DNA of 42,260 bases. Origin: Pseudomonadota bacterium. Its GTDB lineage: Bacteria > Pseudomonadota > Gammaproteobacteria > Pseudomonadales > Moraxellaceae. The number at the start of each line of letters is the position of its first letter. Position 1 is the first letter of the stretch. Positions 15,005 through 25,385 of the stretch are shown in pieces. A program made the position numbers and the translations under genes. Location of the stretch: NCBI GenBank assembly GCA_021833365.1, contig JAKBFV010000015.1, forward strand, positions 1 through 42,260, in the 5' to 3' direction. Under the pieces are notes generated by a model. It saw only the letters and a list, made by a program, of their open reading frames with translations. It searched no databases and was not told the DNA's origin.

Positions 15005-15688
15005 ATGAGCCAGCCGCGCCGCACTCAGGCAGAACGTTCAGCACAGATGCGCAGACGCCTGCTCGAAGCCACACTCAGCTGCCTGGCCAGTGAGGGCTAT
15101 GCTGGCAGCACGGTGAGTAAGATCGTCGAGCGCGCCCAGGTCTCACGCGGCGCTCCCGTACACCACTACCCGAGCAAGGCGGCGCTCATCGAGGCCGCCG
15201 CCGAGTTCATGATCCATCGCATCTACGCCGAACTCGGGCGTGTCGTCCTCTCCCTACCCGCCAGTCCGCAGCATCTCGAGGACATCATCCTCGGCTGCTG
15301 GCGCAGCGTCTTCGGCAAGCAGGAAAATGCCGCCATGCTCGAACTGATGCTGGCCAGCCGTCATGACGAGGAACTCGCCCTGATGATGCGTCGGCTCTGG
15401 ACGGTCGGCTATGACACCCTGAAGCTGGCCACCCACCACTACTTCGAGCCCTTGCAGGAAGAAGCGCAACCGCTGCAGCTGATGACCCTGACACAATGGC
15501 TGCTGCGCGGCATGTCCCTCGACCTGCACCTGGTGCACGACACCGCCATCTTCGAGCATTTCATCAAGCTCTGGGTGCGCCTGCTCGCCACCCAGATGCG
15601 CCCGCGTCAAGACATCCAGGGGCCGCCACCACGCCCGGCCTTCTGGGATACACCCCTGCGCGAGATCGACGTACAGCGGCGACGCTGA
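15005..15688 (+). CDS. TetR/AcrR family transcriptional regulator
   Basis: A 227-residue repressor-type protein. Residues about 10-60 hold the helix-turn-helix, with RRRLLEATLSCLASEGYAG, TVSKIVERAQVSRG and HHYPSKAALIEAA. The C-terminal ligand domain is not recognisable to a specific class. The ATG at 15005 is preceded by a run of six G, 4 bases away; a TTG at 14993 would add four residues. It probably regulates, or is cotranscribed with, the dehydrogenase gene just upstream. Confidence 0.88.
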   Translation: MSQPRRTQAERSAQMRRRLLEATLSCLASEGYAGSTVSKIVERAQVSRGAPVHHYPSKAALIEAAAEFMIHRIYAELGRVVLSLPASPQHLEDIILGCWRSVFGKQENAAMLELMLASRHDEELALMMRRLWTVGYDTLKLATHHYFEPLQEEAQPLQLMTLTQWLLRGMSLDLHLVHDTAIFEHFIKLWVRLLATQMRPRQDIQGPPPRPAFWDTPLREIDVQRRR

Positions 15689-15729
15689 TCACACTCGCAG
15701 CTCAGCCCATGACCTTCGAGGGCGGAGCA

Positions 15730-18700
15730 TCATGACAGCTGCCCGCCCACACCCTTGAATTTCTCGACAAAGGCAGCAATCTTCTCGAAGACACTGTGTT
15801 TTTTTGCCAGGTACTGCGGATTCAGCGGGCTCATCTTCGGCAAAACGGCATTCAGCTCAGTGCCGCTGTCACTGGCGTATTCCCGTTTCAATGAGGACGT
15901 GATATAGCGCTTGGCCGCCTCCGTGTTCAGGTTCTCAGAACTGATCAACTCTTGTGCCTCTCGCTGTTGTTCCGCCTGGGCAAAGGTGAAAAAGGCAGCA
16001 ATCACGCTGGTCTTGTCGCCCAACTGGTCGAGATCGGTTTGGTTGATGAAGTCGACCAAAAGACTTTCCTTGGCACGATTGCCCAGGCTGGCACGAATCA
16101 CCCGGCGCACCTCATCCACCAGATCCGACTTGCTCTTGGTCTTTTTGTTGTGCTCGAAGATCAGCTCCAGAATATAGTCTAGGTTGATTTCCTGAGACTT
16201 GAGCAGGTCCACTTCAAAGACGACATCATCCCAGTCAAGGGTTGACTTGTCCTTTTCAGCGGCAGATTTTTCCCGACGCAACCAATCGCGAACATCATTG
16301 TAGGTTGAGCGGTAGTCCTGAATTTTCCGCTCCGCTGGAAGTGTAATCGCTTGCAGTGCAGTCACATCGTCATCGCTCAGATAATGCTGCGCTTTGAACG
16401 CTTCAACGGCTGCCGGGTCGTTCATGTCCACACGTTGCAAGGCCTTCAGACTGGCAAACTCATCATAGTTCTGCAGCACATTCTCAACGCGCAAATACTC
16501 ACCAAACAGCTTGGCGAATGCCTTTTTGTCAGCTTCCTTCTCAATGGCTGAAGGATCAGGAAAGCGCTGCTCCAACTCCTTGACGACTTCTACAAAGCCA
16601 CGTCGGGCTTCACCGGTGATCACATCGGTAAAGCCTTCCATGTATTCCTGGTAGCTCTTCTCCAGCACCACGTTCTTGGTATTCTTGTCGCCGAACAATG
16701 TGATGGCGTCAATCGTCGCCTGCTCCAGATCGCGGAAGGTGACAATATTGCCGAAGGTTTTGGTGGTATCAAAAATACGGTTGGTACGCGAATAGGCCTG
16801 GATCAAGCCGTGGTAGCGCAGATTCTTATCCACGAACAAGGTATTGAGCATAGGCGCATCAAAACCGGTCAGGAACATGCCTACGATGATCAGCAGGTCA
16901 ATCTCCTTGGCCTTCACCTGCTTGGCCAGATCGCGGTAATAGTTCTGAAAGCCTTGACTGTCCACGCTGAAGTTGGTTTTGAACAACGCGTTATAGTCCG
17001 CGATCGCCGCGCTCAGAAATTCCTTGGCACTGCTGTTCATCGCCGATACTTCAAAGCCCTCATCCAGGATTTCCCCCACAGCCTCCTGTTCCTCGTTGGC
17101 GGCAAAGGAGAAAATGGTGGCAATCCTCAACGGCTTGTCGCTGCCCTGCTGCAGTTCCTTGAACGACTCGTAATACAGCTTGGCGGCATCCACGCTGCTC
17201 ACGGCCAACATGGCATTGAAGCTTTTGTTCTTAGGATCAGCACCCGCGTACAAACGATGAGTCTTCTGCCGAAAGTTGTTGAGAATGTACTGGGTAATCT
17301 CGTGGATACGGTCGGGATGCAGCAAGGCCTGCTTGTTTTCAGCAGCGCTGAGCTTTTTCTCATCCTGCTCGGATTCAATGGCTTTGAACTGAGGACGCAC
17401 ATCGTTGTAGTCCACCTTGAACTTCAACACCTTCTCATCACGAATCGCATCAGTGATGACATAGGAGTGCAGCTCACGGCCAAACACGCTGGCCGTGGTC
17501 TCTGCGCCCAGAGCGTTTTGCGGGAAGATCGGTGTCCCGGTAAAGCCAAACTGATAGAACTTCTTGAACTTCTTTTTCAGGTTCTTCTGGGCCTCACCAA
17601 ACTGGCTGCGATGGCACTCATCAAAGATAAACACCACCTGCTTGCCATAAATCGGCAAGTCACCTTCATTTTTCATCAGGTTATTGAGCTTCTGGATAGT
17701 GGTGACAACGATTTTGTTGTCATCTTTCTCCAGATTGCGTTTCAGGCCAGCGGTACTGTCCGAGCCATTGACACTGTCCGGAGAAAAACGTTGGTACTCC
17801 TTCATGGTCTGGTAGTCCAGATCCTTGCGATCCACCACGAAGAACACCTTGTCAATAAAGTCGAGTTCAGTGGCCAGGCGTGCCGCCTTGAAGCTGGTCA
17901 GGGTCTTGCCCGAGCCTGTGGTATGCCAGATGTAGCCGCCACCTTCCGCTTTGCTCCAGCTTTTGGCCAGATAGGCACTGTGGATCTTCCATAGAATGCG
18001 TTCGGTCGCCGCAATCTGGTAGGGGCGCATCACCAGCAGCGTGTTGCTGACATCAAACACCGAGTAGTGCAGTAGTACATTGAGCAAGGTGTGCTTCTGC
18101 AAGAAGGTGGCGGTAAAGTCCTTCAGGTCCTTGATCAGGCTGTTATCGGCCTTCGCCCAATTCATCGTGAAGTCAAAGCTGTTCTTGTTCCGCTCGGTGG
18201 TATTGGCAAAGTATCGACTATCCGTACCGTTGGAGATCACGAACAACTGCAGATATTTGAACAGGGAATGTTCGCTGTTGAAACTTTCTTTGCTGTAGCG
18301 GTGCACCTGGTTGAAGGCTTCACGAATTGCTACGCCGCGCTTTTTCAGCTCCACCTGCACCAGCGGCAAGCCATTGACCAGAATCGTCACATCATAGCGG
18401 TTGGCATGGGTACCTGCTTGCTCAAACTGCTTGATGACCTGCACTTTGTTACGGGCGATGTTTTTCTTATCCAGCAGGTAGATGTTCTGGATACGCCCGT
18501 CGTCAAAGACAAAATCGTGGATGTAGTCGTCGTGAACTTTGCGTGTTTTCTCAACGATGCCGTCGCTGGGCTTGTCCAGCCAGGTCTCGACAAAGCGCAG
18601 CCATTCGCCATCAGCAAACTGCACGTTATTGAGTGCTTGCAGCTGCACGCGCATATTGGCCAACAAGGCATCCGGGGTCGTCAGCGCAGGCAGGAACTCA

Positions 18701-18843
18701 TAACCCTGATGAACCAAATCCTGAACGAACTCACGCTCCAAGTCGCTTTCGCTCTGGTAGGTCTCAGCCACTTGCCAGGCTTGGGTGTACTTGTCGAGAA
18801 CGATAAAATTATTAGATTCAGCGATCGGTTTATAGTCCGTCAT
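15730..18843 (-). CDS. hsdR: Type I restriction enzyme R subunit, EcoR124I-like
   Basis: The motor and nuclease subunit: it pulls DNA past the bound complex and cuts at a distance. The 1037-residue protein matches the EcoR124I HsdR length. The PD-(D/E)XK nuclease residues fall at D151, E165 and K167 (VELKK), the same positions recalled for EcoR124I. The helicase has TTGSGKT (motif I), DECH (motif II) and GFTGTP (motif III). All key residues seem intact. The ATG at 18843 gives [10 protein letters not shown]; the open frame extends to 18975 inside the upstream gene. It overlaps the Bro-N gene by 14 bases, so its translation may depend on that frameshifted gene. Confidence 0.95.
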
Positions 18844-19682
18844 TTTGGTTTGCCTTCTGCTGCAATAATGGCTTGACCTTGTACGGGCAGACAACCGGCT
18901 TGCCCGTCTCTGCTTCCAGATTTCGCCAAGCCTCTTTCGCCACGCCGCCATGATAGGCGACATCTTCATGCTCATCCATCGACTGCGGATTGACAGCTTC
19001 CGAAATTTCTTTTGTTGAAAGCTCGGCCAACATGTTCAGCACCAACTCTTTGTTGGTCATATTGTCACGCAGGCTTTCCTTCTTCAGCCCTTTGTACTGT
19101 TTGTATTCCTGCGCTGATTTACCTGCCCATGTCTTATCAATCACATCGGTCAGAAAGGCGAATTCGGTCCCTTCGTGCAAACCGTGTTTCTTCCACTCAT
19201 CGGTGAGCTCCTTACGAATTTCAATGCTCTTGAGCCGCTGGTTGATCCAGTTATCAGAGTACCCCAGGTCCTTGTCATCGCGCATCGCTTGCTCAATCGA
19301 TCGCTCCGGGTCTGCCAGCTGATCCAGACGCTCGCTGCCGACGTGTGCCAACCACAGTTTGAACGGCTCGGCTTTTTTGGAAGGGACCGATTGGATCAGC
19401 CGCAAGATCTGTTCCGTATCAACAACATCCGTCTTGTAGTATTTACCATCAGCCGCCTTCATTTTCAGTTGGTGAGTGGCGCTAACCAACTGACTGCCCT
19501 CGGCAATGAGCTTGTTCTTCAGCCATTTCCAGTCATTACGAACCTTCTTGTCATCGGGGTTGTTCGGTCAGAACCGCAATCACATCAAGCACTGAAAACC
19601 ACCATTTTTCAGCATCGGCATCCCACTCCGTGCGGATCTGCTGTGATTCAAACATCTTGATTTTACTTTGCGCATCACTCAT
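18830..19682 (-). pseudogene. Bro-N domain (phage antirepressor-like) gene with a +1 frameshift
   Basis: Two reading frames together encode a ~283-residue Bro-N protein of the kind often found in type I restriction loci. The first frame starts with ATG at 19682 (MSDAQSKIKMFESQQ) and runs through WWFSVLDVIAVLTEQP to a TGA at 19551-19553, giving 43 residues. The rest continues in the +1 frame (DDKKVRNDWKWLKNKL, later AEPFKLWLA, YSDNWINQRL and ELTDEW). Removing one base from the C4 tract (GGGG at 19556-19559 on the plus strand) restores the whole frame. It could be a true mutation, phase variation, programmed +1 shifting at CCC-C, or a sequencing error. Its role in these loci is unproven. ATGA overlap with the 50-codon ORF before it. 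Confidence 0.8.
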
Positions 19683-19831
19683 ACCATGACCCCTTCCGGC
19701 TTGGTCATCTGCAGACACATGCGAAGTTCGCTGGCGATGATGAAACACACCCACTGACGATAGTCCCACAGGCTGTGGGACAATTTAAAAACATCAAACC
19801 CTATCACGACCTCATGATGATATGCGCTCAT
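19679..19831 (-). CDS. Hypothetical 50-residue protein between hsdS and the Bro-N gene
   Basis: An uninterrupted 50-codon ORF (MSAYHHEVVIGFDVF... to ...KPEGVMV). It starts in an ATGA that also ends hsdS and stops in an ATGA that starts the Bro-N gene, so translation is coupled on both sides. That arrangement, filling the gap exactly, argues for a real gene. It has a mixed hydrophobic/aromatic centre (SLWDYRQWVCFIIASELRMCL) that could form an amphipathic helix. I recognise no family. A 19-bp palindrome lies inside it. Confidence 0.6.
   Translation of the reverse strand: MSAYHHEVVIGFDVFKLSHSLWDYRQWVCFIIASELRMCLQMTKPEGVMV
19763..19781. repeat. 19-bp palindrome inside the 50-codon ORF
   Basis: GTCCCACAG and CTGTGGGAC are perfect 9-base arms with one central base. 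It lies 52 bases downstream of hsdS, next to an A/T-rich stretch (CAATTTAAAAACATC). The near-absent loop suits a dimeric DNA-binding protein better than a hairpin. Confidence 0.65.
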
Positions 19832-21033
19832 GACACCATCTCTTCTGGTCTTGGAAAGCTGAACAGTAGATCACGGTAATACTCGTATTGCTTCTGGCGC
19901 AGTGCAATTTCGCGCGGCAAGCCCTCGGTGATGGAGTGAGTCAGGGCATCAAACTTGTCAAGAATGGCAACAATCCGTTTCTGTTCTTCAGGCAGCGGAA
20001 CGGGTACTTCCAATTGAATAAGGTCAGACTTATTAACGGCAGGAACCCCACCTTCTTTTTTCAAACCCAACAGAAGTTCGCTTCGTGATTGAAGGAAGTA
20101 GAAAAGATACTTATTGATCAGAACAGCCTTATTTGTTGATTGTAGCTTATAGCACAAAGGCCCCAACCAAAATGGATCCCTTTGATACCCAACATAGCCA
20201 ATTCCCCCTTGGCCTCGAGAAGGGGTGGTAACGGTATCGCCGGCGCAATTGCTTGCAGCGCTGTATCCTGATCGGGATGTCCCAGCATTGATGTAATCAA
20301 ATATTGTCGCATTTTCAAGAATTTCAGGTGGCTTTGACCCAGTATTTATGTCAACCAGTGCTCCCAACGTCTTCCACTCCACCTCCCCTTCTTCAAAGCT
20401 CAACAACTTATCGCGATAGTAGTTGTATTGCTTTTTCCGGGCGGTCAGCTCGGCGGTCAGCTCGGCGGTCAGCTCGGCGGTCAGCTCGGTGAATGTGTCC
20501 AGTATGCGGACGATTTCGGACTGAATCTCAAGCGACTTTTTGGGGTTGGATGGACAGGGGATGGGGATTAGATAATTCAATATTTCCGATTTATCTCCTC
20601 GTGGCATCTTTGCGCCTTTTGCATGCAGCATGCTATACGAGAAAAACTTATTTGAGGACAAAACATAATAGAGAAATCTTGAATCAACGAATAGCTTGCT
20701 CTTATCCTGAATTCTCACAGCAAGAACATCGCCACTACAACCGCCTGAATTCGTCGCTCTCCATACCTTTTTGAGGTAAGGGCGAATATTACCAAGCAGG
20801 ATGTCTCCTGGCTCGTATGCCGTCAAACGCTCTGTGTTGGGCAAATAACTTGCGTCAACACGCCCACCCTTATCAGCAACGAGGTTATCAACTCCCACAA
20901 AAGAGGTCGCATCAAGTTCAGCAGCATCAACTCGCGTCTGCGAATACTCCGTCACATCCCCAAGTGCCTTCCACTCCACCTCAACCCCATCCAGCAGCTT
21001 GTCCAAGAAGTTTATGCTGCTCTTGCTGCTCAT
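19828..21033 (-). CDS. hsdS: Type I restriction enzyme specificity subunit, EcoR124I-like
   Basis: Chooses the DNA target for both methylation and cutting. The 401-residue protein has two variable target-recognition domains (about 25-170 and 225-355), each followed by a conserved helix: RILDTFTELTAE...KKQYNYYRDKLLSF in the centre and AILDKFDALTHSITEGLPREI...KQYEYYRDLLFSF at the end. The centre has four ELTA units (residues 183-198), equivalent to the TAEL repeats whose number sets the spacer length in EcoR124I versus EcoR124II. The conserved parts resemble type IC subunits. The target sequence cannot be read from the domains. It overlaps the DUF1016 gene by 4 bases and the 50-codon ORF by 4. 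Confidence 0.93.
   Translation of the reverse strand: MSSKSSINFLDKLLDGVEVEWKALGDVTEYSQTRVDAAELDATSFVGVDNLVADKGGRVDASYLPNTERLTAYEPGDILLGNIRPYLKKVWRATNSGGCSGDVLAVRIQDKSKLFVDSRFLYYVLSSNKFFSYSMLHAKGAKMPRGDKSEILNYLIPIPCPSNPKKSLEIQSEIVRILDTFTELTAELTAELTAELTARKKQYNYYRDKLLSFEEGEVEWKTLGALVDINTGSKPPEILENATIFDYINAGTSRSGYSAASNCAGDTVTTPSRGQGGIGYVGYQRDPFWLGPLCYKLQSTNKAVLINKYLFYFLQSRSELLLGLKKEGGVPAVNKSDLIQLEVPVPLPEEQKRIVAILDKFDALTHSITEGLPREIALRQKQYEYYRDLLFSFPRPEEMVS
20441..20488 (-). repeat. Four perfect 12-bp tandem repeats in hsdS
   Basis: The plus-strand unit GCGGTCAGCTCG is repeated four times with no mismatch, encoding (ELTA)4 in the central helix. In-frame gain or loss of a unit would change the distance between the two recognition domains. 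Confidence 0.95.
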
Positions 21034-22070
21034 ACTGCATCTCCCTGCAACTCGCGTTCTATCTGTTCGATGCTGGGCAGATTGATTTTGATGGCATCGG
21101 GGAGCGATTCGATCAACTTGTATTCAGCGATACCCATCGCTTGGTTTTTGTCACCCAGGGCGTATTCGGCCACCAACTTGTTTTTGCTCTTGCACAGCAG
21201 CAGACCGATGGTGGGGTTGTCGAGTTCGTGTTTCACCTGCTTGTCGATCGCCGTCATGTAAAACCCCAGCTGTCCCAAATGCTCGGGCTTGAACTTGCCC
21301 GCCTTGAGCTCAATCACCACATAGCAGCGCAATTTCAGGTGATAGAACAGCAGGTCGATGAAAAATTCATCGCCGCCGACATCCAGCAATACCTGCCGTC
21401 CAACAAACGCAAAACCCGCCCCCAGCTCCAGCAGAAATTCGGTGACGTGTTGGACAAGGGCATGCTCAACCTCGCGCTCTTGCGCCTCCTCGGTCAGGCC
21501 GAAAAAGTCAAAACGATAGGGATCTTTGATGGATTCGCGAGCAAGGTCGGAATCAGGCTTGGGCAAAGTCGCTTCGAAATTGGTGACGGCATTGCCTTGT
21601 CGCTCGTGTAAGCGCGCTTCGATGTGCAGCACCAGGATATTGCGTGACCAGTTGTGTGCGATGGCCTTGGCTGCATACCAACGACGTGTTTCTGTACTGG
21701 ATAATTTATCCAGCAGGGCCAATTGGTGATACCACGGCAATTGTGCAAGCACCGCTTGCACAAATTCGACATCGGGCCAGGCTTCGGCAAAAGCGCGCAT
21801 GTATTTGAGGTTGCGTGGCGAAAATCCCTTCATGGCGGGAAAAGCCGTGCGCAGATCGTGCGCCAGCCGCTCGATCACCTTGGCCCCCCAACCTTGCATG
21901 GCCTGACGCGCCAAGATATCGCTGCCGATCTGCCAGTAGAGCAACACCAGTTCGCGGTTGACCGCCAGCGTGGCACGCTGTTGAGCGCCGTGGATTCTGG
22001 CTTTCAGCTCACTGAGCCAGTCGGCATAGCCTGCCGGCGTGGGCGTCAGGGCGATAGGTGTGTCACTCAT
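21030..22070 (-). CDS. DUF1016 / YhcG-type PD-(D/E)XK nuclease
   Basis: A 346-residue protein with two parts. Residues about 15-150 form the DUF1016 N-terminal helical domain, with LLYWQIG, GFSPRNLKYMRAF and LPWYHQLALL. The C-terminal half holds a nuclease core with D239 (FFIDLLFYH), E254 and K256 (IELKAG), followed by LGQLGFYM. These residues suggest an active metal-dependent nuclease. The biological role of the family is not settled, although it is often near restriction systems. It sits between hsdM (2-base gap) and hsdS (4-base overlap), so it is made with the methylase and specificity subunits. Confidence 0.85.
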   Translation of the reverse strand: MSDTPIALTPTPAGYADWLSELKARIHGAQQRATLAVNRELVLLYWQIGSDILARQAMQGWGAKVIERLAHDLRTAFPAMKGFSPRNLKYMRAFAEAWPDVEFVQAVLAQLPWYHQLALLDKLSSTETRRWYAAKAIAHNWSRNILVLHIEARLHERQGNAVTNFEATLPKPDSDLARESIKDPYRFDFFGLTEEAQEREVEHALVQHVTEFLLELGAGFAFVGRQVLLDVGGDEFFIDLLFYHLKLRCYVVIELKAGKFKPEHLGQLGFYMTAIDKQVKHELDNPTIGLLLCKSKNKLVAEYALGDKNQAMGIAEYKLIESLPDAIKINLPSIEQIERELQGDAV

Positions 22071-22072
22071 GC

Positions 22073-23623
22073 CTATGGCTCCTCGCCTTCGATCTCGGCA
22101 ACGATGGCATCAATGTCTTTGCGTAGCTTGTCGATCTTGGCGACAGTAGTTTTTAGCTCCGCATTGAGCTGGGCAATGTCCACCACTTCGCGGTTGTCCT
22201 TGGCTTCAACGTAGCTGCTGACGGACAGGTTGTAGTCGTTGGCGGCCACTTTCTCAAAGGGAACGGATTGGGCGAAGTGATCGACGTTGGCCTTACTGTC
22301 GAACACCTGCATGATCTGCTCGATGTGTGCGTCGAGCAGCACGTTGTTGTTGGTCTCTTTCTTGAACAGGCCGCTGGCATCGATGAACTGGAGGGTGGTG
22401 TCGGTTTTGTGTTTGGACAGCACCAGAATGTTCACGGCGATGGTGGTGCCATAGAACAGGTTGGGCGCCAGCGAGATAACCGTCTCGACGTAGTTGTTGT
22501 CCACCAGATACTGACGGATTTTCTGCTCGGCTCCGCCACGATAGAAAATGCCAGGGAAACAGACGATGGCGGCACGGCCTTTGCTGGAAAGGTAGCTCAA
22601 GGCGTGCAATACAAAGGCAAAGTCGGCTTTGGATTTCGGTGCCAGCACGCCTGCTGGGGCGAACCGCTCATCGTTGATCAGGGTGGGGTCATCACTGCCG
22701 ATCCACTTCACCGAATACGGTGGATTGGAGACGATGGCATCAAAGGGTTTATCATCGCCAAAATGCGGGTCGATCAGGGTATTGCCGAGCTGAACATCGA
22801 ACTTGTCGTAGTTGATGTTGTGCAAGAACATGTTCATCCGCGCCAGGTTGTAGGTGGTGTGGTTGATCTCTTGCCCAAAGAACCCTTCCTCGATGATGTG
22901 GGCATCGAAGTGCTTTTTTGCTTGCAAAAGCAGTGACCCCGAGCCACAGGCGGGGTCATAGATCTTGTTGACACTGGTTTGCTGGTGCATGGCGATCTGA
23001 GCGATCAGCTTGGAGACATGCTGCGGGGTAAAGAACTCGCCACCGGATTTTCCGGCATTGGCCGCATAGTTCGAGATCAGAAACTCATAGGCATCACCGA
23101 ACAGGTCGATGTGGCTGGCATCGAAGTCGCCAAAGTCCAAGTCAGCCACGCCCTTGAGTACGGCAGCAAGACGGGCATTTTTGTCCCTGACGGTGTTGCC
23201 CAGGCGATTGCTGGTGGTATCGAAATCTGCAAACAACCCCTTGATAGCGTGCTCGGAGGGGTAGCCGTGGGCCGATGCTTCGATGGCGGCAAAAATAGCG
23301 GCCAGATCGGTGTTCAGGCTTTCGTTGGTGTTGGCACCCGCCGCCACCCTGGCGAACAACTGACTAGGGAAGATGAAGTAACCCTTGGTCTTGACGGCGT
23401 CATCTTTGACATCCGAGGTGATGACATAATCATGCAGCTCGGCATAGTCGACGCTGTCGTCACCACCTTCGATGTAGTTGGCGAAATTTTCGCTGATGAA
23501 GCGATAAAACAGGGTGCCGAGCACATATTGCTTGAAATCCCAGCCGTCGACGGCACCGCGCACATCGTTGGCGATTTGCCAGATACGGCGTTGCAGTTCG
23601 GCGCGTTGTTGCATGCTCGTCAT
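22073..23623 (-). CDS. hsdM: Type I restriction enzyme M subunit (N6-adenine methyltransferase)
   Basis: Methylates adenine at the target with HsdS, protecting host DNA; also part of the restriction complex. The 516-residue protein has [11 protein letters not shown] (SAM motif I, about 222-232) and NPPY at 300-303. The whole sequence closely follows my recollection of EcoR124I HsdM (520 residues), including the N-terminus [10 protein letters not shown], which fixes the start at 23623. No strong ribosome site is visible. It is first in the island, so the promoter should lie in 23624-24476. Confidence 0.95.
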
Positions 23624-24476
23624 CGTTATAATCCCGTGTCCATAGGCAAAATTGCGCGCCAGCAGGACGTGTCTCTGTCTTCCGATCCGCCGTGCTGGCG
23701 ATCGTCGTGCTTCTCTCGGCTATTCGTCACTGACCCGCGTGGCATACATGCCAGCCACCCGCTTGTTCATGTCCCCGGCACGATCAGCTCCCGGCAGGCT
23801 AGCGGCCCCCTTCCGGTCGATCCTGGCGCAAATCGAAGAAGGCCTGAGGCGCCGATGCTCGAGCATGGGATCCTCGCACACCGACAGCGGCGAACCTGAA
23901 GACTCCAGGGAACTGAACAGCACTGACAGCGAACTGCATCGCAGACAACGCAGTATATCAGTTCTGCTGCCATCGCCATGCGCGTGGTGTTGACAGTTGC
24001 AGCATGGCTGGATGGTACGTCTTGAACTCCTCGAACACAGGCTCGATCTCCCTGCGCTCGTGGTACAGCGCCGGCGTCTCAGCACGGGCAACGATGTCGG
24101 GTATCAGCCACTAGCCGCCTGTTGGATTGAACACATGCCCGCGCATTCCCCTTCCGGGTCCGGCCTGGTGCGCATAGCGAACCTTTCGCCGAAGGCGACA
24201 GGACAGGAGGGGGGCGGCGTTTTTCAAGGTGCTTGTCGCTTTTCCATGTTTCCTATGCCGCCACCGGCCCGTTGCGTGTCTCTTCTGAGCAAGCTTGCGG
24301 TCGTGCTACTTTGGCAGATCCATCGACCGTGTGAGGCCGCGCCAACATGCCCCGATCCTTGGCCCGGGTGCCAGCAGGCTGGGGCGTCCCTTCTGATAGG
24401 TGAATGGCGCAATCGGCAATGGGCTTGCAGCGCTACCGACAGGCACACTGCCGGTTTCCGATCAGAGTTCACGCCT
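23624..24476. other. Stretch of 853 bp with no convincing gene
   Basis: It lies between hsdM and the plus-strand hydrolase gene and should hold the hsdM promoter, but no good minus-strand -35/-10 pair is clear. A perfect 12-bp palindrome ATGCTCGAGCAT is at 23855-23866 and GGCAT-AC-ATGCC at 23741-23752. The open frames here (for example 23720-24091 minus) match nothing I know. No RNA gene signature was seen. It may be the degraded edge of the acquired island. Confidence 0.5.
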
Positions 24477-25385
24477 ATGTCTTCACAGAGCCGCTATGTT
24501 CGTAGCCGCGACGGCACCCGTCTGCACGCCAGCTGCCATGGCGACGCGCAGCTCCCCGCCCTCGTCCTCGTGCACGGCTACCCCGACAATGCCCAGGTCT
24601 GGACGCCGCTCATCGCCGAACTGCTGCCGTATTTTTATATCGTCACCTATGACGTGCGCGGCGCCGGTCAGTCCGACAGCCCACGCCGTCGCCGCGACTA
24701 TCGGCTGGCGCGTTTGGCCGAGGATCTGCAATGCGTCGTCGATGCCCTGCTGCCGGGGCGCGCCTTTCATCTCGCGGCGCACGACTGGGGTTCGATCCAG
24801 AGCTGGGAGTCGGTCACCGAAGCGTCGCTACGGCCGCGTCTGCTGTCGTTCACGTCGATCTCCGGGCCTTGTCTCGACCACGCTTCGTTCTGGCTGCGTC
24901 GTCAGCTGACCCGGCAACCGCGCCAGGTGGTCGATCAACTGCTGCACTCCTGGTATATCGGTCTTTTTCACGCGCCTTGGCTGGCGGAAGGCGTCTGGCA
25001 TCTGCTGCTGGCGCCTTTGTGGCCGCGCGTGCGGCAGATGAGTGACGGCATCGTCGACCTGCCTTCGCAGCAACAATTGCACGATGCCCTGCACGGCATC
25101 GCCCTCTATCGCGCCAACTTCATCACCCGCCTGCTGCGTCCACGCCGCCGCCACGCCATCTGTCCGGTGCAGGTCATCCTGCCGCGCCAGGATGCCTTCG
25201 TGCGTCCGCAGCTGGTCGAAGGCCTGCAGCAGTGGGTGAGCGAGCTTTATGTGCGCGAGATCGACGGCGGTCACTGGGTCATCCATGCGCAACCACGCCC
25301 GATCGCTGCCATGATCCGCGACTTCGCCCTCGGCCTCGAAGCCGGTCAGCTGGCCGCCAGTCTGATCGCGGCGCGCGTTCACTGA
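24477..25385 (+). CDS. Alpha/beta hydrolase, epoxide-hydrolase-like
   Basis: A 302-residue hydrolase. HGYPDN (33-38) forms the oxyanion loop, YDVRGAGQSD is the usual glycine-rich block, and AHDWGS puts aspartate D103 at the nucleophile position, as in epoxide hydrolases and haloalkane dehalogenases. H266 (GGHW) is the likely catalytic histidine. As I recall, the sequence resembles the N-terminal half of ~590-residue proteins that continue into a short-chain dehydrogenase; here it ends after the hydrolase, so it is a single-domain form. The start at 24477 fits the fold, but the frame is open upstream to 23997 and the ribosome site is weak. It overlaps the convergent Nudix gene by 7 bases. Substrate unknown. 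Confidence 0.8.
   Translation: MSSQSRYVRSRDGTRLHASCHGDAQLPALVLVHGYPDNAQVWTPLIAELLPYFYIVTYDVRGAGQSDSPRRRRDYRLARLAEDLQCVVDALLPGRAFHLAAHDWGSIQSWESVTEASLRPRLLSFTSISGPCLDHASFWLRRQLTRQPRQVVDQLLHSWYIGLFHAPWLAEGVWHLLLAPLWPRVRQMSDGIVDLPSQQQLHDALHGIALYRANFITRLLRPRRRHAICPVQVILPRQDAFVRPQLVEGLQQWVSELYVREIDGGHWVIHAQPRPIAAMIRDFALGLEAGQLAASLIAARVH

Follow-up and report, generated by a model that had tools for sequence, protein, structure and literature searches.

Why should a type I restriction-modification operon carry further genes between those for its own subunits? This question is raised by a locus within a 42,260-nucleotide (nt) stretch of DNA from a gammaproteobacterium of the Moraxellaceae (contig JAKBFV010000015.1, assembly GCA_021833365.1), which was analysed whole and is called the window here. 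On its minus strand hsdM, a DUF1016 nuclease gene, hsdS, a 50-codon open reading frame (ORF), a Bro-N gene and hsdR follow one another in tight packing, with the order and coordinates described in an earlier note on this DNA. Families were assigned with Pfam, PADLOC and NCBIfam, and the three libraries were concordant (Table 1). We favor, at a probability of roughly 0.55, the reading that this operon is a horizontally acquired type IC carrier of exchangeable anti-phage genes, held in one slot between hsdM and hsdS (M-S) and another between hsdS and hsdR (S-R), and that DUF1016 serves as a second-line nuclease.

Judged by its sequence, the core is a type IC (EcoR124/EcoprrI) restriction-modification system, as had been proposed. 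EcoR124-type HsdM, HsdS and HsdR are encoded in one operon, the relatives of HsdM and HsdR include E. coli type I loci, and the central conserved region of HsdS contains the TAEL repeats, reading TELTAELTAELTAELTA here and described in part of PMC3874165 as the spacer repeat of type IC HsdS. The ratio of nonsynonymous to synonymous substitution rates (dN/dS) for hsdM is 0.045 against the nearest relative (locus L137). The perfect 12-bp repeats of hsdS (20440-20489) could vary in copy number, which would change the spacer length of the recognition site. DNA similar to the window hsdM was found in 1625 of 5426 complete E. coli genomes, the similarity covering at least 80% of the gene in 1332 cases, and by these counts type I restriction operons of the EcoR124 family are widespread. 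The junctions likewise bore out the claimed 2-base gaps and 4-14-base overlaps: a 2-nt gap separates hsdM from DUF1016, 4-nt ATGA overlaps join DUF1016 to hsdS, hsdS to the 50-codon ORF and the ORF to Bro-N, and the end of Bro-N (18830) overlaps the ATG of hsdR (18843) by 14 nt. It is this packing that suggests joint production of the accessory genes and the core enzyme. Scans for promoters and terminators across positions 15400-24600 gave 4 and 9 sites against 6.0 and 9.8 in shuffles, and hence no signal.

To place this arrangement among its relatives, genome contigs were scanned with HsdM and the best 80 of at least 584 stretches (at least 576 confirmed) were kept, at 82-92% identity. Of these loci 64 span hsdM to hsdR, and the 62 with a recognisable hsdS are the complete relatives. 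In the other 16 the contig or operon ends before a long hsdR match; also left out were duplicates (L139, L163, L164), loci with HsdM below 70% (L171, L172, L181) and those in which hsdS is wanting (L052, L057). Cargo was counted as stop-free genes of the PrrC, Fic, RhuM, KilA-N, DUF1016, Bro-N, RelA-like and AlbA_2 families, the cluster names being Pfam or PADLOC matches of single representatives (for PrrC, E 1.4e-130 against the PADLOC PrrC model). Far from being absent from all similar loci, such genes occur at least once in 52 of the 62 operons, in M-S only (7), in S-R only (26) or in both slots (19). Copies in M-S and S-R number 0 and 26 for PrrC, which is thus confined to S-R, 6 and 12 for RhuM, 15 and 1 for the Fic protein of about 201 amino acids (aa), 1 and 5 for a longer Fic, 5 and 4 for DUF1016, 5 and 0 for KilA-N, 1 and 4 for Bro, 1 and 4 for RelA-like, and 0 and 2 for AlbA_2. 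The search for this gene order in other genomes, which the earlier note had proposed, thus had a divided outcome: the exact order M-DUF1016-S-Bro-R was found in none of the 62, and the same families were found at the same places. Because of this recurrence, the arrangement is more than chance. In the nearest relative hsdM is 94% and the M-S DUF1016 92% identical to the window genes, and the S-R slot instead holds PrrC and a second DUF1016. In line with the statement that EcoR124I has hsdM-hsdS-hsdR alone, six hand-picked E. coli regions had no annotated gene in either slot (one has an insertion sequence element inside hsdS), and the S-R spacer is short, 118-124 nt in the five regions measured. 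Four E. coli loci with 124-nt S-R spacers (L184, L185, L186, L188) carry the inverted repeats GACCGG...CCGGTC and CCGGAAG...CTTCCGG before hsdR, for which control of hsdR expression is possible. In the S-R slots of L034, L044, L049, L068 and L074, 5' hsdR fragments lie upstream of a later hsdR start, sometimes between two cargo genes, as if pieces made of cargo plus an hsdR start had been added whole in front of hsdR.

Among 93 complete or nearly complete loci, PrrC came first in all 13 cases in which it shares the S-R slot with other stop-free cargo, and the five loci with several genes in M-S all fit the order RhuM, Fic, then KilA-N/DUF1016/Bro. Slot labels were then compared with the cargo trees by counting observed changes against 500 label shuffles. 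The DUF1016 tree (18 sequences) required 3 slot changes against a shuffled mean of 5.2 (14-16 of 500 as low), the RhuM tree (28 sequences) 3 against 6.4 and the Fic tree (25 sequences) 2 against 5.5 (0-1 of 500 as low for each), several long branches making the placement of those sequences unsure. Ten M-S DUF1016 sequences, the window's included, form one clade (96/97) and four S-R sequences another (100/100); the exceptions to the slot rule are four divergent DUF1016 sequences, the S-R RhuM of L083, which falls among those of M-S, and an S-R Fic in the scrambled L034. The trees therefore suggest that Fic, RhuM and DUF1016 have largely separate lineages for the two slots. Of 218 cargo junctions, 150 lie between a 30-nt overlap and a 15-nt gap, although start codons were taken nearest the upstream gene, which favors tight values.

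The agreement of slot contents with the core-gene trees appears to be weak or absent. A quick hsdM tree was made for 86 loci; on it S-R content showed 48 changes against a shuffled mean of 49.9 (56 of 200 shuffles as low), PrrC presence in S-R 28 against 27.0 (145 of 200) and M-S content 26 against 30.8 (0 of 200). With 83 loci, S-R content showed 43 changes against 47.7 on the hsdR tree (6 of 300 as low) and 44 against 48.0 on the hsdM tree (15 of 300); both lie below the shuffled values, and therefore a weak link to the core exists. PrrC was near random on both of these trees (140 and 61 of 300 as low), and a comparison of the two core trees revealed no reliable difference in how closely S-R content follows them. 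A test for dependence between a filled M-S and a filled S-R slot gave p 0.82, and 33 different M-S/S-R combinations occur.

The intact occupant of the window is the DUF1016 gene, in keeping with the suggestion of an added nuclease in the same packed operon. Its DUF1016_N and YhcG_C domains score 146.9 and 208.5 bits, above both cut-offs. Residues D239, E254 and K256 (D...ExK, with E254-L-K256), which, judged from the fold, would be catalytic, are invariant across eight aligned DUF1016 proteins, and the gene is under strong purifying selection, with dN/dS of 0.105 and 0.085 in comparisons with L138 and L190. Given these conserved residues and this selection, the protein probably acts in the living cell. 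Of 369 genomes of the class, 54 contain a DUF1016 match with an E value of 1e-40 or better. Five DUF1016 genes reach at least 75% identity: three, including that of the window, lie between hsdM and hsdS, and two lie in MmeI-like type IIG operons, each in a different genome. There the gene (82-84% identity by tblastn) is joined by ATGA overlaps to its neighbours, an MmeI-like type IIG restriction-methylation gene on one side and on the other a gene whose product has a helicase-like domain. One DUF1016 lineage is thus found in two unrelated carriers, always directly after a methyltransferase gene. The type IIG operons themselves (L223:5731-11851 and L224:5452-10549) are tight, their helicase-like proteins of 705-706 aa had no PADLOC match at E 1e-10, and they could be a separate defence system.

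How might such a nuclease serve its carrier? In the scheme we propose, the core enzyme would modify host DNA and cut unmodified DNA. The M-S slot holds an intact PD-(D/E)XK nuclease gene; in the S-R slot a 150-nt stretch, probably left by former occupants, precedes the frameshifted Bro-N gene. DUF1016 would be made together with the methyltransferase and held quiet by, or alongside, the modification complex; when a phage blocks or escapes restriction, it would be released onto nucleic acid, its presumed target, as PrrC is in EcoprrI. PrrC is kept inactive by its type IC partner until phage Stp releases it, according to the parts consulted of PMC2610378, PMC3506569 and PMC3874165, and the DUF1016 equivalent is drawn by analogy with the silencing and the Stp trigger published there (PMC2610378, PMC3874165). 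In support of this scheme, both families of the window, DUF1016 and Bro-N, are PADLOC defence candidates (PDC-S02 and PDC-S13), and PrrC, the one cargo with a tested mechanism, sits in the S-R slot. Several observations weigh against it. The guard role would be carried over from a protein unrelated in sequence; the structure model of DUF1016 is poor (predicted local distance difference test score 55), and a sequence search for a relative of solved structure found none; 10 of the 62 relatives hold no detected stop-free cargo of these families (three of the ten hold shorter pieces), and therefore the core does not need cargo. Finally, because two unrelated type IIG operons carry DUF1016, this gene can do without HsdM, HsdS and HsdR.

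This last point somewhat favors the main rival, in which DUF1016 and the other cargo would be stand-alone anti-phage genes that share transfer and expression with the Hsd genes and have no physical or regulatory tie to them. The loose relation between slot content and core trees, with PrrC in S-R as an example, and the many broken or eroded cargo copies fit it as well. However, slot-specific lineages and a PrrC restricted to S-R suggest more than random hitch-hiking, and PrrC is known, from the portions consulted of PMC2610378, to be controlled by its type IC partner. We therefore hold this rival to be a serious but distinctly less probable explanation than a type IC carrier with a second-line nuclease.

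A bolder extension of the carrier reading can be offered tentatively, and we doubt it more than we believe it. The EcoR124-type operon may be an ordered docking platform in which each slot has its own long-lived cargo lineages, which would be seated with a precision of a few bases and replaced more rapidly than the core genes diverge. The order would be RhuM, Fic, KilA-N/DUF1016 in M-S, and PrrC/RelA-like followed by RhuM/DUF1016b/Bro in S-R. M-S DUF1016 would dock also behind unrelated methyltransferases (MmeI-like type IIG), and the methyltransferase-proximal slot would be a functional address, with a nuclease watching the modification enzyme. If the slot rules are fixed, one can predict the class of an unknown gene from where it sits, and one-by-one cargo swaps on a constant core offer a clean test of restriction-enzyme back-up.

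The 50-codon ORF in the S-R slot of the window has no match in Pfam, PADLOC or NCBIfam. Compared with the aligned beginnings of the L138 and L190 spacers, it shows a dN/dS of about 0.72, over 23-25 codons only. Without a family and with this relaxed substitution pattern it was rejected as a gene, and it is probably the scar of former cargo. The 153-nt spacer was searched by nhmmer, unfiltered, with DNA profiles of cargo genes and with 300 dinucleotide shuffles as control. It contains a 36-nt DUF1016-like piece (11.8 bits, a palindrome reducing the information content of this piece), followed directly by a weaker 54-nt RhuM-like piece (8.7 bits); the best shuffle reached 0.4. At the protein level the RhuM debris was not significant (-1.6 bits against up to 5.0 in shuffles), and so this assignment is made from the DNA. 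Among 1000 operon-external chunks, five reached 8.7 bits, all against RhuMsr2 and perhaps true RhuM genes; the best score for another family was 8.4. The same DUF1016 piece occurs in two other S-R spacers, that of L190, an Aeromonas media plasmid (16.8 bits), and that of L166 (45.1 and 22.7 bits); in both it stands just before an intact RhuM gene.

To ask how general such debris is, we surveyed 92 complete loci with default filters at 10 bits or more, 49 of which provided 71 spacers of at least 60 nt. Pieces of cargo or core genes were present in 29 of the 71: 20 were cargo outside the window, although some of these may be the ends of neighbouring genes (for example in L044 and L053), 8 were hsdR or hsdM ends, and 1 was the window's Bro. 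With these filters the window spacer gave only its Bro gene, both debris scores coming from the unfiltered search. The same spacers, reversed, gave 0 matches. Debris of replaced genes is thus, on this sequence comparison, a regular feature of the slots, and small ORFs found in them can be gene debris. Within the window scar lies the inverted repeat GTCCCACAGCCTGTGGGAC, which, even when up to 3 mismatches are allowed, occurs nowhere else in the 2.57-Mb genome; a genome-wide repeat or mobile element was accordingly rejected. In DUF1016b genes the palindrome is ordinary coding DNA for PQPVGQ, and of the whole scar it is what L190 has kept and, in imperfect form, L138 as well. Chance, a retained function or deletion linked to a hairpin may account for its persistence.

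Of the three accessory genes described in the earlier note, DUF1016 is thus intact and conserved and the 50-codon ORF looks like a scar; the third, Bro-N, is frameshifted. Its ATG frame (start 19682) ends at a stop (19551-19553) after 43 codons, the conserved rest continues in another frame to 18830, and no single reading frame spans the full length of this PDC-S13 candidate. Bro-N was therefore rejected as a working control gene in the window, where it probably does nothing. An assembly or sequencing error in a gene that is whole in the cell is an alternative that we consider possible though doubtful. The genome is a draft in 114 contigs, the frame change sits at a short C run, and the remainder is still codon-conserved, with a ratio of nonsynonymous to synonymous differences (pN/pS) of 0.17 against L074; on the other side, broken cargo is common in the S-R slot, and errors do not usually arise at runs as short as four. 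It is unlikely that DUF1016 adds to Hsd restriction while the small ORF and Bro-N regulate it: all share one packed operon, and the slots repeatedly hold members of the Bro-N, KilA-N and RhuM families, but Bro-N is frameshifted, the small ORF lacks conservation at the protein level, and an intact Bro is wanting in 57 of the 62 relatives (5 intact copies), and so the idea of a control module was not supported. Programmed frameshifting to full-length Bro-N, hinted at by a frame change at the C run shortly before the stop, is highly improbable, given that 6 other hsd loci carry 7 Bro copies, every one of them stop-free over 258-315 codons, and many outside Bro homologues are single open frames.

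Two further observations concern the Bro-N family. The C-terminal part of this cargo (18830-19546 in the window; intact in L042, L067 and L074) is weakly like the DNA-binding damage protein DdrC, with family matches at E 2.3e-5 to 6.4e-4 and 19-24 bits, well below the cut-off of 150, and a match to DdrC in the PDB at E 0.012; this likeness hints at a link to DNA damage. In addition, positions 5-113 of the 292-position PADLOC model PDLC04841 match the Bro of L074 and positions 120-289 match the Fic of L068; because one model spans both cargos, fused Bro-N-Fic proteins probably exist.

Type I operons with accessory genes inside them are already known, from EcoprrI-PrrC, the Campylobacter mlo/rlo genes and the PADLOC candidates PDC-S02 and PDC-S13. 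EcoprrI (hsdM-hsdS-prrC-hsdR) shares with the window a type IC core and an accessory gene in the operon, and its PrrC is the commonest S-R cargo among the 62 relatives. In the window DUF1016 instead occupies the M-S slot and a broken Bro-N the S-R slot, and a search of its S-R stretch found no PrrC piece. EcoR124I/II share the HsdM and HsdR families, the EcoR124_C domain and the TAEL repeats (three, as in EcoR124II), whereas the related E. coli loci examined have no annotated genes in the slots. In another host, Campylobacter jejuni, extra ORFs occupy, as here, both the M-S interval (mlo) and the S-R interval (rlo), as Miller et al. 2005 is cited in the sections consulted of PMC5183652 and PMC2610378. 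PADLOC catalogues single genes, the window proteins matching its PDC-S02 and PDC-S13 models; such candidates stem from guilt-by-embedding (Payne et al. 2024, preprint, as cited in excerpts of PMC12988326 and PMC12255303), and slot lineages, order and scars come from the present analysis. In enteropathogenic E. coli, DarTG2 lies between hsdS and hsdR in the RptR island, whose anti-phage activity was tested for the whole island (PMC12255303, in part). It is, like the window cargo, a separate defence module in the S-R position of a type I operon, with different cargo and a dedicated repressor. Loci with PrrC plus RhuM or Fic/Doc genes around restriction genes, the same combination of cargo families, are described in PMC3710099, the portion consulted not mentioning DUF1016 or separate slot lineages, and immunity-suicide coupling in type I operons is described in part of PMC3506569. 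Among the papers listed by literature searches of open-licence PubMed Central, we recognised none on slot-specific cargo lineages or slot scars. The points of interest are the slot rules, the scars and the presence of the same DUF1016 lineage inside MmeI-like type IIG operons.

Table 1. Features of the hsd operon, with positions in the window.
Feature	Position	Strand	Evidence
hsdM, type I DNA adenine methyltransferase subunit, 516 aa	22073..23623	-	TIGR00497 hsdM 653 bits (cut-off 242.75); N6_Mtase and HsdM_N
DUF1016/YhcG PD-(D/E)XK nuclease gene, 346 aa, M-S slot	21030..22070	-	PF17761, PF06250; PADLOC candidate PDC-S02 E 7e-165
hsdS, specificity subunit, two recognition domains, 401 aa	19828..21033	-	PF01420 in two stretches
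12-bp tandem repeat in hsdS, three TAEL units	20440..20489	-	4.2 copies, 100% matches
50-codon ORF, S-R spacer, probable scar	19679..19831	-	no family match; dN/dS about 0.72; gene debris by nhmmer
DUF1016-like 36-nt piece	19755..19790	-	like nt 289-324 of S-R-type DUF1016 genes; nhmmer 11.8 bits
RhuM-like 54-nt piece (weaker)	19702..19755	-	like nt 464-517 of S-R-type RhuM genes; nhmmer 8.7 bits
Perfect 9+1+9 inverted repeat GTCCCACAGCCTGTGGGAC within scar	19763..19781	-	
Bro-N gene, 5' part, 43 codons then stop	19551..19682	-	PDC-S13 E 6.7e-14 on 72-codon ORF containing the 5' part
Bro-N gene, remainder in other frame	18830..19555	-	PDC-S13 E 8.5e-99; Bro-N Pfam 24.4 bits (just below 25.6 cut-off); DdrC model E 2.3e-5 (well below its cut-off)
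hsdR, restriction/translocation subunit, 1037 aa	15730..18843	-	TIGR00348 683 bits (cut-off 284.55); EcoR124_C 240.7 bits; ATG 18843

Because its G+C content, about 49-56%, is below the 62-70% of both flanks, the operon block is probably foreign. In a genome of the same genus (L136, G007), hsdM residues 1-96 are found at 99% identity, adjoining the same alpha/beta-hydrolase gene, and the contig ends there. Near this hydrolase gene, at L136 4900-11967, are genes for a response regulator and for a large sensor protein of PAS-domain-like character (named by eye from the sequence). A second hydrolase fragment there is fused to a TetR tail, and hsdM starts at the contig end.

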